64,000 bases of DNA from Desulforudis sp. (GTDB lineage: Bacteria; Bacillota; Desulfotomaculia; Desulfotomaculales; Desulforudaceae). The position numbers and the translations under genes are program-made. The stretch spans positions 62,001 through 126,000 of the forward strand of contig QZIR01000074.1 in the NCBI GenBank assembly GCA_003604975.1, in the 5' to 3' direction. Shown here one piece after another: positions 40,033 through 46,588 of the stretch. Within the stretch, counting starts at the first letter, position 1; each line of letters opens with the position of its first letter. Under the pieces are notes generated by a model. It was not told where the DNA came from. It did no database searches and was given only the letters and a program-made list of their open reading frames with translations.

Positions 40033-40826
40033 TCCAGCGTGATCAAAGCCGCCTGACGTCCGGTTTGACCGTTATGCGCCCGATAGGAAAAATACTGTGT
40101 ACTGTGACAGGCGGTGCATACCCCCGCCAACTCGATGTTTTCGGGTTGCAGGCCGGCTTCCAGGAGCACCAGACGGTTCGCGGCCCAGAGATCCAGCATC
40201 CAGGCTTCCCCCACCGTCTGGCGGAGGATGCCCGCGTCGGCTCCAAAAGCCGCCGCAAACCGTATCCGGACCTCGTTCCCGACAGGGTAACAACAGGCGC
40301 CAATGGACGGGCCGATGGCCGCTAATAACCGGTACGGCTCCACACCGAAACGCTCCTGCATCATCCGGACCGTTTCAAGGCCGATACGGTTCTCGGTACC
40401 CCGCCATCCGGCGTGGGCCAGGCCAATCACGTGCTGACCCGGATCGTAGAACAAAAGCGGCACACAATCAGCAAAGAAAGCGGCCAGAGGCACCCCTGGA
40501 TCGGCCGTGACCAGGGCATCGGTTAAAGGGATGGCGCTTGCCCGGTCCAATGCCCCCCGGCCAAGGTCGGAACGCCCCACTACGGCAACGCGGTTACCGT
40601 GAACCTGCTCGCCGCAAACCAGGGTCTCAGCGTCGATGCCCAGTGCCCCGCAGAACCGGTGCCGGTTCTCGATCACCCGGTTTGGATCGTCCCCGACGTG
40701 TAAGCCCAGGTTCAGGGTGGACAGCGATCCCTCGCTGACGCCCCCGCTCCTGGTACTGAACGCGGCCCGGACCGGATGTCCCTGATAGACGTTGAATCGA
40801 AACACTGGCAGAGCCTGGTCAGTCAC
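40029..40826 (-). CDS. pgeF: YfiH/LACC1 family multifunctional nucleoside enzyme (YlmD, PgeF)
   Basis: The product has 265 residues. The family motifs are VRAAFSTRSGG near the start, CGEQVHGNRV with the first metal His, FADCVPLLFYDP with the Cys, and GLAHAGWRGT with the second His; ASCCYPVGN appears as GACCYPVGNEV. The family (formerly laccase-domain DUF152) is now known as purine nucleoside phosphorylase/adenosine deaminase and in E. coli corrects a wrong muropeptide. In Bacillus it is ylmD, next to ylmE; here it lies 8 kb away and is coupled to phoP. The GTG at 40826 overlaps the MBL gene by 8 bp. Confidence 0.92.
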   Translation of the reverse strand: MTDQALPVFRFNVYQGHPVRAAFSTRSGGVSEGSLSTLNLGLHVGDDPNRVIENRHRFCGALGIDAETLVCGEQVHGNRVAVVGRSDLGRGALDRASAIPLTDALVTADPGVPLAAFFADCVPLLFYDPGQHVIGLAHAGWRGTENRIGLETVRMMQERFGVEPYRLLAAIGPSIGACCYPVGNEVRIRFAAAFGADAGILRQTVGEAWMLDLWAANRLVLLEAGLQPENIELAGVCTACHSTQYFSYRAHNGQTGRQAALITLE

Positions 40827-42387
40827 CCTTCTTAGCCCCTTCCGCCCGGCGTGCAAGGTACTGTTGAAACTCGGTCACCTTGGCCAGGACGTCGTCGTAA
40901 GAGTGGTTTTCCTCCTGCAGGTAGCGTTCCAGATCGGACCAGAACCGGTGGCAGGCCTGGGTCAGCTTTTGTCTCTTCTCCAAACCGCTCTGGACGGTGA
41001 CAGTCTCCTTCCAGACGGGAATACGGGCGATAATCCCGGTTTCCCGGGTCAGACGCTCTTTCAGGGCCTGGGCCGCTTTGGCCTCACCGTGCACCAGGAA
41101 GAGTTGCTGCGGGTAGACCCGGAAACGTTTCACCCAGTCCACCAGCATGTCCTGGTCGGCATGGGCGGACCAACCACGAATGTTCTCGATGTCGGCCCGA
41201 ACCACGACTTCCTCCCCGAACAAGCGGGCCTTCTGCCCCCCGTCGAGAAGATAACGGCCAAGGGTTCCCTCCGCCTGGTAACCAACAAACAGGATCGTCG
41301 CCTCGGGACGCCACAGGTTGTGTTTCAGGTGGTGGCGAATCCGTCCGGCTTCGCACATGCCGCTGCCGGCCAGGATGATCGCTCCACCAGGAATTTCGTT
41401 GAGCCGCCTTGATTCCTGCGCCGTACGTGACATTTTCAGGTGCGGCAGGCCCAGAGGGTCAATCCCCGCCGCCAGCAGCCGGCAGGCTTCATCGTCGTAA
41501 CAATTGTGGTTGGCCCCGAAGATATGGGTAATCGCGATGGCCAGCGGGCTGTCCACGTAGACGTCCATCGGCGGCAGTTCGTCGGCCCGCATTAGACCGA
41601 AAATCTGGTACAGCAGGTCCTGGGTACGTTCCACGGCAAAGGCCGGGATGATCAGATTACCGCCCTTCCGGTAGGTCTTCCAGATCACTTCCTTGAATCT
41701 TTCTGCTGGGTCTTCGTCGGGCTCCTTGTGCTTACGGTCGCCATAGGTCGATTCCAGCACCAGGCAGTCGGCGTCCCAGACGTTTTCCGGATCACGCACG
41801 AAGGGCCGTCCCCGGTTACCCAGATCTCCCGAGAAGACGATTTTGGTGTCCGTTCCGCCCTCTTCCCTGACCCAGAGTTCAATCACCGCTGCCCCCAGAA
41901 TGTGCCCGGCATCCCGGAGCCGGTAGATGATCCCCGGGATCAGCTCCTGCTTGACATCTATGGCTACAGGCTGGAAGTATTCCAGACAGCGGTAAGCATC
42001 GTCCACGGTATAGATCGGCTGTACCTCCGGCTGACCGGTACGCCTGGCCTTGCGGTTCTTGCGCTCTACTTCCATCTCTTGAATGTAGCCGCTGTCAGGA
42101 AGCAAGGCCCCACACATGTCTGCCGTACAGGCCGTACACAGTATGGGTCCTTTGTAACCGTACTTAATCAGTTTCGGGATCTGCCCGCTGTGGTCGATAT
42201 GGGCGTGGGTAAGGAAGACAAAGTCGATCGATTCGGGATCAAAAGGAAAGGACTCGTAGTTACGCTGGCGGATGGCCTTGGGACCCTGGAAGAGACCGCA
42301 GTCCACCAGAATCCTGGTTTGGCCCGTGTCCACAAGAAAACATGAACCGGTAACGGTGTCGGCTCCGCCGTAAAAAGTCAGTTGCAC
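40819..42387 (-). CDS. MBL-fold beta-CASP RNA-type hydrolase
   Basis: The product has 522 residues. The metallo-beta-lactamase core has the FLTHAHIDHSG motif (H-x-H-x-D-H), GHILGA (His), SGDLGN (Asp) and ESTYGDR. A beta-CASP insertion is marked by NLIIPAFAVERTQDLLY and ILAGSGMCEAGRIRHHL. A RMMBL motif follows (FGEEVVVRADIENIRGWSAHADQ in parts). The C-terminal 80 residues are helical and charged. Such proteins are mostly RNA endo- or exonucleases of CPSF/RNase J type; the exact substrate is unknown. It starts at ATG 42387 and carries its own promoter, which probably also serves pgeF, phoP and phoR. Confidence 0.92.
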   Translation of the reverse strand: MQLTFYGGADTVTGSCFLVDTGQTRILVDCGLFQGPKAIRQRNYESFPFDPESIDFVFLTHAHIDHSGQIPKLIKYGYKGPILCTACTADMCGALLPDSGYIQEMEVERKNRKARRTGQPEVQPIYTVDDAYRCLEYFQPVAIDVKQELIPGIIYRLRDAGHILGAAVIELWVREEGGTDTKIVFSGDLGNRGRPFVRDPENVWDADCLVLESTYGDRKHKEPDEDPAERFKEVIWKTYRKGGNLIIPAFAVERTQDLLYQIFGLMRADELPPMDVYVDSPLAIAITHIFGANHNCYDDEACRLLAAGIDPLGLPHLKMSRTAQESRRLNEIPGGAIILAGSGMCEAGRIRHHLKHNLWRPEATILFVGYQAEGTLGRYLLDGGQKARLFGEEVVVRADIENIRGWSAHADQDMLVDWVKRFRVYPQQLFLVHGEAKAAQALKERLTRETGIIARIPVWKETVTVQSGLEKRQKLTQACHRFWSDLERYLQEENHSYDDVLAKVTEFQQYLARRAEGAKKGD

Positions 42388-42556: not shown

Positions 42557-42769
42557 TTGCCTATCTACGAGTTCAAATGCGACAAGTGCGGCCACAAGTT
42601 TGGAAAGCTCTGCCCGATGGGTGAAACGGGTGAGAATGTCAAGTGCCCTGAATGCAACCAGCGGTACCCACAAAAGCTCGTCTCCGGTTTTGCCGCTCCT
42701 GGCGCGAACGGGGGCAGCGGAGCATCGTGTGGTGGCTGCACCGCGTCGAGCTGTGCCGGCTGCAGGTAA
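42557..42769 (+). CDS. FmdB-family zinc-ribbon protein
   Basis: The product has 70 residues. MPIYEFKCDKCGHKFGKL begins the FmdB ribbon and CPECNQRYPQKLVS ends it, giving four Cys for zinc; PIYEF-x-C is the family mark. The glycine- and cysteine-rich tail (GASCGGC, then CAGC) may bind more metal. Such proteins often serve as small regulators or carriers. The TTG at 42557 follows GGAGG. A small unknown gene follows 35 bp later on the same strand. Confidence 0.88.
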   Translation: MPIYEFKCDKCGHKFGKLCPMGETGENVKCPECNQRYPQKLVSGFAAPGANGGSGASCGGCTASSCAGCR

Positions 42770-42804: not shown

Positions 42805-43074
42805 GTGTTCCCCACCGAAGAACTCATTGACCTGAGAGACAAGATCAGCGAGGACCTGATGCCCCAGTACCGGAAACTCCTGCGCGACCGCATGGACGAG
42901 CTTCAGGAACGCAACGCCAGCCCCTCGGAAGCAGTGAACGCCCTTGTGGACATCATGACTGTCTACGCGATCGACGTGTCGACCAACCTGCTGATCATCA
43001 ATAATGAGATGCTGTGGAAGACCCTGGCTGAGCAGGGCGTGGTTAAGGACGCTCCGGCCTCGGAAGCTGAATAA
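42805..43074 (+). CDS. Small uncharacterised helical protein
   Basis: The product has 89 residues and no family I recognise. It is almost wholly helical: residues 5-38 (IDLRDKISEDLMPQYRKLL) are amphipathic and charged, 40-60 moderately hydrophobic (VNALVDIMTVYAIDVS), with an acidic tail. No Cys, signal or membrane helix. The GTG at 42805 follows AATGAGGTG. It follows the FmdB-like gene and may be co-transcribed with it. Its last 112 bp overlap, antisense, the end of the Hint-domain gene. Confidence 0.6.
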   Translation: MFPTEELIDLRDKISEDLMPQYRKLLRDRMDELQERNASPSEAVNALVDIMTVYAIDVSTNLLIINNEMLWKTLAEQGVVKDAPASEAE

Positions 43075-43658
43075 CAAACCAGCTTCTCAAGGTCAATTTT
43101 GCCGGCCCGGCAGACGACTTCAAACCGAAGCTGGGTGAGCATCGCCGGTACGATGGGCGAGATCCCCTCAAACCGATCCCAGCCCCAGGCCTCCCGGGTG
43201 AGCTCCCGCAGCCAGTCATAGTCGGTGTGTTTTACAGGGTCCACGCAGGCCGTCTCGTGCAAGATCCCGGCGAGACTGTCCGGAGAGACGGAAGAGCCCG
43301 GCCCGACCTCGAGATAACGTAGTACGACCCCCAACCTGGCCTCCTGCGGCAGGACGTCAACTACTTGTCCACGGTCACTACAGGTCAACAGCGAATGCCC
43401 CTCCGCCAGTACGACGCTCTGTCCGGTAGCCAACCTGACCTCAACCAAGCAGGAGGGCCGTGTCTGCTCCCGGCAGGCCAACACGTCCCGGAGTCCAATC
43501 CTGGCCGTGACCCGGTCCAGGCTGAAGGCTTTAAAGCGCCGGGCAGTGAACTCCAAACCCAATTCCACGACAGAAATCCGCCGGACTCTACCCAGTTCAC
43601 CGTCACAGACCCACAGGCTTTCCATCCCGCTGATGCCGCAAACCGCCTTCTCCGACAC
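42963..43658 (-). CDS. Orphan intein-like (Hint) domain protein
   Basis: The product has about 231 residues. Residues 7-115 read as the N-terminal part of a Hint/intein splicing domain: a near-N-terminal Cys (AVCGISGMESLWVCDG), then GRVRRISVVELG (block A), and later CLVEVRLATGQSVVLAEGHSLLT, where the His at about 88 matches the block B Asn-x-x-His-type position; QEARLGVVLRYL follows. No LAGLIDADG endonuclease or block F/G splice end (His-Asn) is seen, so it is a partial or non-splicing Hint. The GTG at 43658 has GGGGGAT upstream and a promoter at 43699-43728. Its last 112 bp overlap the small gene antisense, which suggests truncation of the original 3' end. Confidence 0.6.
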   Translation of the reverse strand: MSEKAVCGISGMESLWVCDGELGRVRRISVVELGLEFTARRFKAFSLDRVTARIGLRDVLACREQTRPSCLVEVRLATGQSVVLAEGHSLLTCSDRGQVVDVLPQEARLGVVLRYLEVGPGSSVSPDSLAGILHETACVDPVKHTDYDWLRELTREAWGWDRFEGISPIVPAMLTQLRFEVVCRAGKIDLEKLVCYSASEAGASLTTPCSARVFHSISLLMISRLVDTSIA

Positions 43659-43698
43659 TAGCCCATCCCCCAACTGATCAACACTGGTTGTTTATTCC

Positions 43699-43728
43699 AT
43701 TGTATATCTCCGATTGTGCGGCAGACAA
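43699..43728 (-). promoter_or_regulatory. Candidate promoter of the Hint-domain gene
   Basis: TTGTCT (43723-43728), 18-base spacer, TACAAT (43699-43704) on the minus strand, about 41 bp before the chosen start and just after the ymxH terminator. Confidence 0.55.
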
Positions 43729-43754
43729 CAAAAATTGGCGCCATCGGAGGCGCC
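43726..43754 (-). terminator. Terminator after the PRC-barrel (YlmC/YmxH) gene
   Basis: On the minus strand GGCGCC pairs with GGCGCC (43737-43742 and 43749-43754) around a 6-base loop, followed by AATTTTTGTTG. Confidence 0.8.
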
Positions 43755-43781: not shown

Positions 43782-44045
43782 CTAGCGGCGGGCGGAGAAA
43801 CGTTCACCGGCGTTGGGCACTTCCACCAGGATCACGTCAACCCCGATCTTGACGATTTTCTCCCACGGCACCACGATTTCCTCGTCCCGCCCGAAGAAGC
43901 CGAGCATTCGCGAAGAACCCGCCAATACGATCGCGCTGATCCGCCCATTTTCCAGGTCAAGGTCGATGTCCTTAATCAGGCCGAGCCTGCGCCCATCCTG
44001 TACGTTTACGATTTCGCGCATCCGTAAGTCCGAAATCTTGATCAT
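43782..44045 (-). CDS. ylmC: PRC-barrel protein, YlmC/YmxH sporulation family
   Basis: The product has 87 residues and is a single PRC-barrel: MIKISDLRMREIVNVQDGRRLGLIKDIDLD (in parts), then GRISAIVLAGSSRMLGFFGRDEEIVVPWEKIVKIG (in parts) are the YlmC/YmxH hallmarks. The family is found in all endospore formers, near sigG or divIVA, and has no known function. The ATG at 44045 follows GCGGGGTGA. It is divergent from the MCP-like gene and is followed by a terminator. Confidence 0.9.
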   Translation of the reverse strand: MIKISDLRMREIVNVQDGRRLGLIKDIDLDLENGRISAIVLAGSSRMLGFFGRDEEIVVPWEKIVKIGVDVILVEVPNAGERFSARR

Positions 44046-44147
44046 GTGGATCACCCCGCTAATATGGATATGCTCGACCACCTTAAAAAAGACAAGAAAT
44101 CCTAGTGGGCATAGGCCAAAAAACTGTACATCATGTCAATGGAACCA

Positions 44148-44156: not shown

Positions 44157-44269
44157 TTTGTGAAAGATATCACTTTTGCCGGACTGAGGTGATGAAAGCC
44201 GTACGATGATTAAAGATCCCCCGTCTCACCGATTGACTGTCCGTGAATTGCTACGAGGAGGTGGGTTCC

Positions 44270-45874
44270 TTGAATATCCGGCAGAAGATCATGGTCAGTT
44301 ATCTGGCCGCATTCGTCTTCTTTGTGATTACCGGTCTCGTCGGGCTTACCGCGATGAACAGCATACAGCGCTCCTACGAAGATCTGATTGACAGTCGCGT
44401 AAACCTGGTCCGCGAGACCCAGGAAATGCTCCTGTCCTTCGAATATGAGGCTCTGATGGCCAGAACCTTTTACCTGACTGGTAAAGAAGAGTGGGAAGCC
44501 GAATACCGTAACCAGGCTCTTCGCACCGAGCAATCCCTGAAGCGTATTGAAAGCCGACTGACCAGCCAGGAAGAACACGTCCTATTCGCTCACCTTTCGC
44601 GTTCGATACTCTCCTTTACCACGGAATACGCTGATCCACTGATCGCAGTACGCAAGCAGGATGATCTGTCGGAGACCGAACGGATCGCGAGGATCATCGA
44701 AGCCACTATTGCCCAGAAGGGAACGGTACGCGGCATTATTCACCTGGGTGAGGACTTCGTAGACTACCAGCGAAACCTGATGAGCCAATCGGTGCAACAA
44801 AACGAGGCATGGGTAACCCGGATCCAGACAATCACTTCCATAATGGCCGCCCTTTGCCTTGTCCTCGGGCTCGGATTGGCCTGGTACCTGTCCCGAACCA
44901 TTGTGGAACCCGTGCGTCGGCTGGAAGAAGCCGCCACCAGGGTCGGTCAGGGAGACCTGTCGGCCGCGGGCTTGAATCTGAGCTCCCGGGATGAGGTGGG
45001 CCGGTTGTCCCGCTCTTTCTCCGCCATGGTCGATAACCTGCGACAACTGACCGGTCGGATCAGTACGACGGCACAGCAGATCGCCAAGCTAACCGGAGAC
45101 ATTAAAACCAATTCGGAATTGGCGGCCCACTCCTCAAGCCAGACCGCCAACGGGTTAATCAAGGCGTCCAGCAATATCCAGCAGCTGGCCGGAGCGGCAC
45201 GCAACGTCGCCGTGGCTTCCGACAAGGCCAGTGAACGGGCCCACCAGCTCGAGGAAATAGCAACGGGGTTCCTGGCCCAGATGGAGAAGAGCCGCCGGCT
45301 CACGGTCCGGGCGGGCGGCACCTTGCGCGAGCTGGAGGAAAAGCTGGAGAGCGTGGAGCAGGTCAACGAATTCGTCAAAGCCCTGGCCGAGCAGGCAACC
45401 CTGCTCGCCCGGAGGGCCGCCACCGAGATGGCGTTTGCGGATGGCCGCAAAACCCCGGATCCCGGAAACGAAGGAACGCGTAACTTCGTGGCCCTGGCCG
45501 GGGAGATGCACAGCCGGGCCAAAGACGCTATGGAGGCCACCAGAAACGTATCCAACCTCATCGACAGTGTCCAGGAACACGCCCGTGAAGCGGTATCCCT
45601 GGTGGACGAGGACTTCAAGATCATCTCCAGCGGTCACCAATTAGCGACCGAAACCGGCGAGTCCTTCCGCAGCATCATTGTCCAGGTCCAAACCCTGGCC
45701 CGCCAGATGCAGGAGGCGGCAGCCCTATCTGAGCAGATCGCCCGGAGTCTGGACAAGATCACTCTCCACACAGAAGAACAGAGCAACCTCAGTGAGCGGG
45801 CGGCGGTGGCGACGGAGACCTTGAACCGACTGGTAAACGAACTGGACCAGGCGATCGGTGCCTTCAAACACTAA
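44270..45874 (+). CDS. MCP-like transmembrane protein with degenerate signalling tip
   Basis: The product has 534 residues. Two membrane helices (about 9-29 and 188-208) enclose a helical outer domain, followed by HAMP (about 209-262, with PVRRLEEAATRVGQGDLS) and a long coiled coil (about 265-530) in MCP phase. The highly conserved hairpin tip of chemoreceptors (a near-invariant LALNAAIEAARAGE-type stretch) should lie at about residues 365-420 but reads FVKALAEQATLLARRAATEMAFADGRKTP, so the CheA/CheW contact is lost or changed, and the methylation sites are unclear. The TTG at 44270 is preceded by GAGGAGGTG, and the open frame to 44243 is not needed. It stands next to the sporulation block; function unknown. 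Confidence 0.8.
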   Translation: MNIRQKIMVSYLAAFVFFVITGLVGLTAMNSIQRSYEDLIDSRVNLVRETQEMLLSFEYEALMARTFYLTGKEEWEAEYRNQALRTEQSLKRIESRLTSQEEHVLFAHLSRSILSFTTEYADPLIAVRKQDDLSETERIARIIEATIAQKGTVRGIIHLGEDFVDYQRNLMSQSVQQNEAWVTRIQTITSIMAALCLVLGLGLAWYLSRTIVEPVRRLEEAATRVGQGDLSAAGLNLSSRDEVGRLSRSFSAMVDNLRQLTGRISTTAQQIAKLTGDIKTNSELAAHSSSQTANGLIKASSNIQQLAGAARNVAVASDKASERAHQLEEIATGFLAQMEKSRRLTVRAGGTLRELEEKLESVEQVNEFVKALAEQATLLARRAATEMAFADGRKTPDPGNEGTRNFVALAGEMHSRAKDAMEATRNVSNLIDSVQEHAREAVSLVDEDFKIISSGHQLATETGESFRSIIVQVQTLARQMQEAAALSEQIARSLDKITLHTEEQSNLSERAAVATETLNRLVNELDQAIGAFKH

Positions 45875-46012: not shown

Positions 46013-46588
46013 TTACGACCGGAGTCTTTCCCAGAGTTCCACGGCACGGAACTTCATCTCGAGGTGTACCGGTCCGTCCTTTTGCCAAGCCACAACCGCC
46101 TCTTCCCGGCTACCCTCACCGCTGTATACAAAACAGAGCGGGGGAAACAGCACACACCACCAGTTGGCGCCGTCTCCGTCACCCAAGACGATGCGTACGG
46201 CCTGGTACTTGCCCTCCGGCAGTACCAGACTACCGTACTCCCTGACCGGGAAATCAAAGGTGCCGAAAACGACCTGCACCGGGTAAGCATGCCCTGAGGC
46301 TGCGGTCTCCTGGATCAAGTCCAGGTTCTCGAGCACGAATTCCCGGGCCTCGTCAACATTCTTTAGTTCGCCAAGTTTTGGGCGCAGGGTCTCGGTGACG
46401 GCATCCCGTACCTGCTGTTTTAATGCCTGGTCGGCTTCGGAGTCACTGTTCGGTATTACGTGCAACCGGATCAGGTTGTCCCGATTATAAGCCTCAACCG
46501 CCCGGGCCTGCCATCCAAATAAACCGCTCCCGATAATGGCCAAACCGATTACGGTTACTCCCGCATACAATAGTCTCTTGCTGATCAT
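46013..46588 (-). CDS. spoIIR: Stage II sporulation protein R
   Basis: The product has 191 residues. An N-terminal anchor or signal (about 5-25) precedes the outer domain, with YNRDNLIRLHVIPNSDSEADQALKQQVRDAV (in parts), the hallmark of SpoIIR, then YPVQVVFGTFDFPVREYGSLVLPEGKYQAVRIVLG and WWCVLFPPLCFV (with the family Cys). SpoIIR is secreted from the forespore and triggers SpoIIGA in the mother cell to process SigE. The ATG at 46588 follows AAAGGGGAAAA. It lies just after sigG, close to its targets spoIIGA and sigE. Confidence 0.93.
   Translation of the reverse strand: MISKRLLYAGVTVIGLAIIGSGLFGWQARAVEAYNRDNLIRLHVIPNSDSEADQALKQQVRDAVTETLRPKLGELKNVDEAREFVLENLDLIQETAASGHAYPVQVVFGTFDFPVREYGSLVLPEGKYQAVRIVLGDGDGANWWCVLFPPLCFVYSGEGSREEAVVAWQKDGPVHLEMKFRAVELWERLRS

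Follow-up and report, generated by a model that had tools for sequence, protein, structure and literature searches.

The small gene next to ylmC in Desulforudis sp., whose product resembles the splicing domain of an intein, raises the question of where such a gene came from, whether its product can still splice or autoprocess, and whether it has been kept for some other task. It was first picked out of the window (the whole 64,000-nucleotide stretch of DNA analysed here) as a free-standing Hint-domain gene with its own promoter, either a truncated intein relic or a domesticated Hint protein with a new task such as autoprocessing. Our analysis supports a free-standing, intein-derived gene, hereafter called the orphan. 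We propose, with a probability of roughly 0.78 for the account as a whole, that it descends in place from an intein of nrdD, that it had a non-splicing binding role in the ancestor of a clade, and that it was later truncated in the species of the window. The features of the locus, in window coordinates, are as follows.

40819 to 42387, minus strand: MBL-fold gene, conserved downstream flank of the nrdR-nrdD-nrdG cassette
42557 to 42769, plus strand: fmdB-type zinc-ribbon gene, downstream flank of the old cassette
42805 to 43074, plus strand: convergent gene, genus-only (2 of 113 genomes), in place of the orphan's lost 3' third
42963 to 43673, minus strand: orphan NrdD-intein-derived gene, an intact frame of 236 codons from TTG; likely start GTG 43658
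42963 to 43074, minus strand: non-homologous tail of the orphan, antisense to the convergent gene, replacing the lost C-terminal Hint strands (blocks F and G)
43080 to 43235, minus strand: helical segment (residues 147-198), EYxWLR..EAWGWDR, remnant of the intein post-endonuclease region, aligned with YDYEYLRPLIADVYG
43296 to 43634, minus strand: N-terminal Hint part (residues 14-126), blocks A and B, with Ser1 and the block-B Thr replaced
43656 to 43671, minus strand: Shine-Dalgarno (SD) sequence GGGGGA and likely GTG start, read from sequence and conserved in G001
43699 to 43728, minus strand: promoter TTGTCT-18-TACAAT, conserved in G001 as TTGTCA-17-TAGAAT
43737 to 43754, minus strand: intrinsic terminator of ylmC (hairpin and T-tract), directly upstream of the promoter
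43782 to 44081, minus strand: ylmC/ymxH (PRC-barrel; Pfam PRC, E 9.3e-14), upstream neighbour, followed in mapped outgroups by nrdR-nrdD-nrdG
46013 to 46588, minus strand: spoIIR, conserved upstream flank

The orphan has the composition of a coding sequence, as its codons 1-198 have a GC content by codon position of 0.66/0.46/0.74, compared with, for example, 0.64/0.40/0.72 in neighbouring genes. The promoter expected from the original prediction is present and matches the consensus at 9 of 12 positions; taken alone it is weak, because a scan of the region returned three sites where 1.0 +/- 1.0 would be expected by chance. It gains weight from the equivalent promoter at the same site in G001, a genome of the same genus, which matches at 10 of 12 positions and is followed by GGGGGA and GTG; a similar promoter (TTGCCA-17-TAAAAT) precedes the orthologue in G012, and the ylmC terminator is conserved as a structure in G001. 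Because the SD sequence and the GTG are conserved in G001, GTG 43658 is more likely to be the start codon than TTG 43673.

The window protein gave no match to Pfam or NCBIfam at E 10 and, on its own, nothing better than E 1.6 in a phmmer search of the PDB, as might be expected if the Hint-like pattern had arisen by chance in an unrelated protein or if the frame were non-coding. However, a search of 60 related genomes returned two homologues, in G012 (E 1.4e-26) and G008 (E 4.5e-13), and weaker matches within the NrdD of two further genomes. The two orthologues, from two further families of the order, are full length and syntenic; they include a C-terminal region missing from the window copy and end in ENFLTAEGVYLGQ and HNYVTAQGILVRD, respectively. 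A profile of the three orphans matched PI-PkoII in the PDB (E 5.9e-9) and, by hhalign, the NrdD inteins (99.5%, E 2.4e-22), so the block-A and block-B reading was right in kind; PF14890 (Intein_splicing) matched the G012 copy at E 1.8e-6, below the Pfam cut-off. Together with the predicted fold described below, the codon composition and the synteny, these matches contradict a chance resemblance, to which we give practically no credence.

The NrdD proteins of these bacteria can carry inteins at three sites, A after about residue 172, B at about residue 256 (NLNSMH^SRAGAQVP) and C at about residue 358, and the site-B inteins were represented by seven examples from genomes of the order and the phylum. 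In blastp comparisons, the N-terminal part of the three orphans matched these seven with E 1e-9 to 3e-18, and the C-terminal part of the full-length orphans with E down to 1e-8; for residues 14-126 of the window copy, the values ran from 1e-10 to 3e-18. The stretch just after LAGLIDADG, YDYEYLRPLIADVYG in the inteins and EYGWLRRLACEAWGWDR in the orphans, matched weakly (best E 7e-4) and with its order kept. Specific similarity to the site-B inteins thus extends over the N-terminal, middle and C-terminal parts, whereas inteins and inserts of the other NrdD sites gave a best E of 1.9. Searched with the orphan profile, 399 genomes of the phylum yielded, besides the window copy, site-B NrdD inteins only, and no further free-standing copy was found in these or in the 113 genomes of the order. 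As far as sequence comparison can establish kinship, the orphans are therefore shown to be related to the NrdD site-B intein and to no other. A tree of orphans and inteins separates the two sets cleanly, with long branches and no finer placement.

The NrdD of the order also carries inteins at the two other sites, after about residue 172 (with Cys1) and at about residue 358; in G094, the intein at the former is a mini-form of about 167 aa that apparently has no nuclease.

The position of the gene points to how it became free. The usual gene order across the taxonomic order, according to locus maps and surveys of YlmC and NrdD, is ylmC followed by nrdR-nrdD-nrdG; the 24 mapped loci read sigE-sigG-spoIIR-ylmC-nrdR-nrdD-nrdG, continuing in several genomes with fmdB (on the opposite strand), the MBL-fold gene and pgeF. 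In three of these genomes (G030, G059 and G089), the ylmC-linked nrdD still holds the site-B intein. In the window genome, G012 and G008, by contrast, the cassette is absent and the Hint gene lies in its slot in the same orientation, directly downstream of ylmC, as had been asked of relatives when the gene was first described. In the window and in G012 it is bordered by ylmC on one side and by that same downstream flank on the other; the G008 contig stops about 100 bases past the gene, before the flank is reached. Both the cassette and the full orphan gene are absent from G001-G007. In an RpoB tree, all ten genomes that lack the cassette fall into a single clade (support 100/99), with G008 outermost and G012 adjoining the genus of the window. 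A species tree from sigG, sigE, spoIIR and ylmC was dropped in favour of RpoB, owing to long-branch trouble and suspected wrong sigE pieces in some loci.

Two observations made along the way concern neighbouring matters. Between spoIIR and ylmC, the window holds a methyl-accepting chemotaxis-like gene on the opposite strand (44243-45874, plus), found only in the genus (G000, the window genome, and G001) among the loci mapped. Outside the window, at G000:C10:35268-36497, a divergent RpoB-like match (E 8.4e-42) lies in a frame of 1962 codons, besides the normal rpoB; this frame might encode an unusual, phage-type or fused RNA polymerase.

The NrdD of the clade is encoded on other contigs and is 30-32% identical to the ylmC-linked type. 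A motif search found no SRAGAQVP-like site in it, and the former homing site seems to be gone from the clade genomes. This replacement-type NrdD has, in G008 (G008:C34:4000-11000), an insert of about 400 residues with an intein-like end (EIYDITTES), possibly another intein.

Because three lineages of the cassette-less clade carry a site-B-type Hint gene in the nrdD slot, the intein appears to have outlived its host gene, and the comparison indicates that the free-standing gene probably descends in place from the nrdD intein at NLNSMH^SRAGAQVP. Since the mapped genomes of the clade's sister group (f17) have nrdD without the site-B intein, we infer rather than observe its presence in the clade ancestor. 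No pieces of nrdR, nrdD exteins or nrdG are left beside the orphans, so no intermediate is seen. An alternative is that a copy of the NrdD intein moved beside ylmC by duplication or transfer and that the cassette was lost independently. The family is mobile by nature, and a moved copy would account for the missing extein trace. However, the orphan occupies the nrdD slot, in the same orientation and between the same flanks; cassette and orphan occur together in no genome; no other copy was found elsewhere in these genomes, nor any relative in viral contigs, plasmids or phages, and a wider scan of contigs added one locus only, the G008 contig itself. We regard such a move as improbable. As just three orphans were found, the case for a single origin depends on the tree, on the synteny and on the nuclease domain having been lost from all of them.

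Several lines of evidence indicate that the orphans have lost the activities of an intein. Position 1, which is Ser in all seven site-B inteins, is Gly in the window copy, Leu in G012 and Phe in G008; the block-B TxxH has become AxxH, TxxC and SxxD, respectively; and the C-terminal His-Asn is missing from the window copy and is replaced by GQ followed by P in G012 and by RD followed by T in G008. The alignment shows a deletion of the LAGLIDADG domain in each of the three, and Pfam finds none in any of the copies. No NrdD sequence surrounds the orphan, which is thus not an in-frame insertion in a host protein. The N-terminal nucleophile, TxxH, the His-Asn with its +1 residue and the host insertion of a class 1 intein are therefore all wanting, and the absence of extein, endonuclease motif and C-terminal His-Asn had been read correctly for the window copy. 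The orphan does not fit the description of BIL domains either, which are Hint domains with active autocleavage inside larger, variable proteins; it is a single small protein beside ylmC from which the splicing residues are gone. With both these residues and the LAGLIDADG domain lost, it is very unlikely that the orphans perform class 1 splicing or homing.

The proposal that a domesticated Hint protein still autoprocesses, using the N-terminal Cys as its nucleophile, draws on that Cys and on the block-B-like GHSLLT with its His, both present in the window copy. This Cys lies one residue upstream of the Ser1 position and is Gly in the G001 remnant, and so is not the splicing nucleophile; the other copies have Leu or Phe at position 1, Cys or Asp for the block-B His, and GQ or RD for His-Asn, and in the window copy blocks F and G are missing altogether. 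Autoprocessing is accordingly left without support, and we consider it very improbable.

The Hint fold itself is predicted to be retained at least in the G008 orthologue. The model of the G008 protein (pLDDT 81, pTM 0.78) matched inteins or BIL domains in all 50 of the Foldseek hits listed against the PDB (6frg, E 1.3e-8), with TM scores against mini-inteins, normalised by the target, of mostly 0.6-0.84. Among PDB structures it comes nearest to the mini-inteins, and it has a helical insert, about residues 126-223, at the position of the nuclease. The model of the window protein (pLDDT 54, pTM 0.29) is too poor to judge the fold, although an alignment of the same sequences worked well for the full-length protein, and its Hint assignment comes from the profile match over residues 14-126.

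The question then arises of whether the clade has kept the orphan or is merely slow to lose it. The three lineages have open frames of 236-302 codons at 24-34% identity, and the identity between the window copy and G012 by codon position is 0.46/0.58/0.32, a contrast that the protein-guided alignment itself favours but to which E-values, open frames, SD sequences and start codons all conform. Four-fold sites of RpoB have identities between these genomes of 0.425, 0.352 and 0.340, compared with 0.355, 0.292 and 0.304 expected by composition, and are thus near random. As codon-position constraint and open frames persist despite nearly saturated silent sites, the orphan appears to have been kept by selection. 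Its best-conserved part is the helical segment EYxWLR..EAWGWDR, in which 11 of the 18 residues at 152-169 are invariant in all three copies. Any function must nevertheless be dispensable, because the gene has been lost at least twice in the clade; constraint in three lineages stands against these losses, two or more in number, and against a window copy that is truncated and evolves faster.

These findings bear directly on whether the orphan is a plain decaying relic, functionless in every species, around which the host gene was deleted and which has eroded ever since. The lost splicing residues, the truncation in the window, the losses from G001 and from two genera of its family and the faster evolution of the window copy would all fit such erosion. 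The long frames, the codon-position constraint, the identity among copies and the invariant helical residues at near-saturated silent divergence do not, and it would be unexpected for neutral sequence to persist while nrdR, the exteins and nrdG vanished without trace. We therefore consider a relic in every species unlikely; a recent loss of function in the window copy alone is likely.

The freed intein would accordingly have been kept in the clade ancestor for a role other than splicing and homing. Most likely, this role would be that of a small binding protein, in which the Hint domain acts as a scaffold presenting the EYxWLR..EAWGWDR helices, which would derive from the stretch that separates the nuclease core from the C-terminus of the Hint domain. 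In some homing inteins, such as PI-SceI and PI-PfuI, the Hint domain or subdomains beside the nuclease core contact DNA, so DNA may be the first candidate ligand. That a splicing-dead, nuclease-less intein was exapted in this way at the locus of its vanished host gene, with a conserved helical binding module on a Hint scaffold, is a reading that we hold at slightly better than even odds.

In the window species, the gene has been further reduced. Family homology stops at about codon 198, and the codons from about 200 overlap the convergent gene in antisense, as originally noted; the latter, a real gene of the genus, encodes a protein of 89 aa that is 77-79% identical in G001. A MAFFT alignment had placed part of this tail (SISLL..LVD) on the C-terminal helix of the other orphans, and one local alignment to G012 continues to residue 230 through a chance SISLL; this homology was rejected, because the tail is read from the opposite strand of a gene that is conserved in its own right, and local homology gives out at about codon 198. 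The window copy is thus without the C-terminal Hint strands, on which the fold depends. With G008 as the outgroup, 29 changes are specific to the window copy compared with 14 specific to G012 (chi-square about 5.2). In G001, the orphan has been deleted down to the promoter, the SD sequence and about 12 codons (VSEQALGGMSGS compared with VSEKAVCGISGM). The truncated protein would no longer be functional, or nearly so, and the gene is probably dying out in the window species; with its block-B His and good codon composition retained, the window copy could still do something. Truncated relic and domesticated Hint protein, offered originally as alternatives, thus appear both to apply, in succession.

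Taken together, our preferred account of in-place descent would run as follows. The clade ancestor may have acquired another type of NrdD in place of the old one, after which the nrdR-nrdD-nrdG cassette would have been deleted with the intein left at the site. The orphaned intein, which has lost its LAGLIDADG domain and terminal splicing residues, would have stayed as a stand-alone gene; later, its C-terminal third would have been lost in the window species and nearly all of it in G001. A series from nrdD intein through full-length orphan, truncated orphan and 12-codon remnant to empty site is visible in these genomes. Inteins are usually viewed as parasites that come and go with the host gene; here the host gene disappeared and the intein remained, persisting without homing and self-excision over the depth of several bacterial families. 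The locus thus offers a testable case of a selfish element turning into an ordinary host gene.

Among known systems, the NrdD site-B inteins (521-528 aa, with Ser1 and LAGLIDADG) are the closest, sharing with the orphan the gene locus, the Hint N-terminal part, the post-endonuclease region and the C-terminal ENFLTAxGIFV stretch, and such an intein would be its direct ancestor. The orphan differs in having neither exteins, LAGLIDADG, Ser1 nor His-Asn, and in having its own promoter and start codon. The Hint domains of the BIL and Hedgehog/Hog types are autoprocessing units within larger proteins that are often secreted. Like the orphan, they represent the Hint fold outside a classical intein, and the BIL structure 2lwy is among the fold matches of G008; unlike them, the orphan is a single small protein without the splicing residues. 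In Arthrobacter sp. FB24, the intein Arth_1007, described as a pseudogene, has exteins of only 66 aa (Tori and Perler 2011, PMC3196547). It, too, is without its proper host protein and without key splicing residues (the block-B His is missing), but it keeps the homing endonuclease domain and short exteins and is a single case with an annotated phage origin (PMC3196547); for the orphan, in contrast, the host locus can be named, no nuclease is left and constraint extends across families. There is also a description of a degenerating phage nrdA that contains an intein (PMC3653736). The yeast HO and WHO genes are free-standing and thought to be intein-derived, with the endonuclease kept and a zinc finger present (PMC7282806); the orphan is a separate gene like these, but without the endonuclease and at the locus of the vanished host gene. 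Free-standing intein descendants are thus already known, but a partial literature search turned up no case of an endonuclease-less, splicing-dead intein preserved across families as a gene of its own where its host gene used to lie. What appears to be new here is a nuclease-less, splicing-dead orphan that remains at its old host locus.
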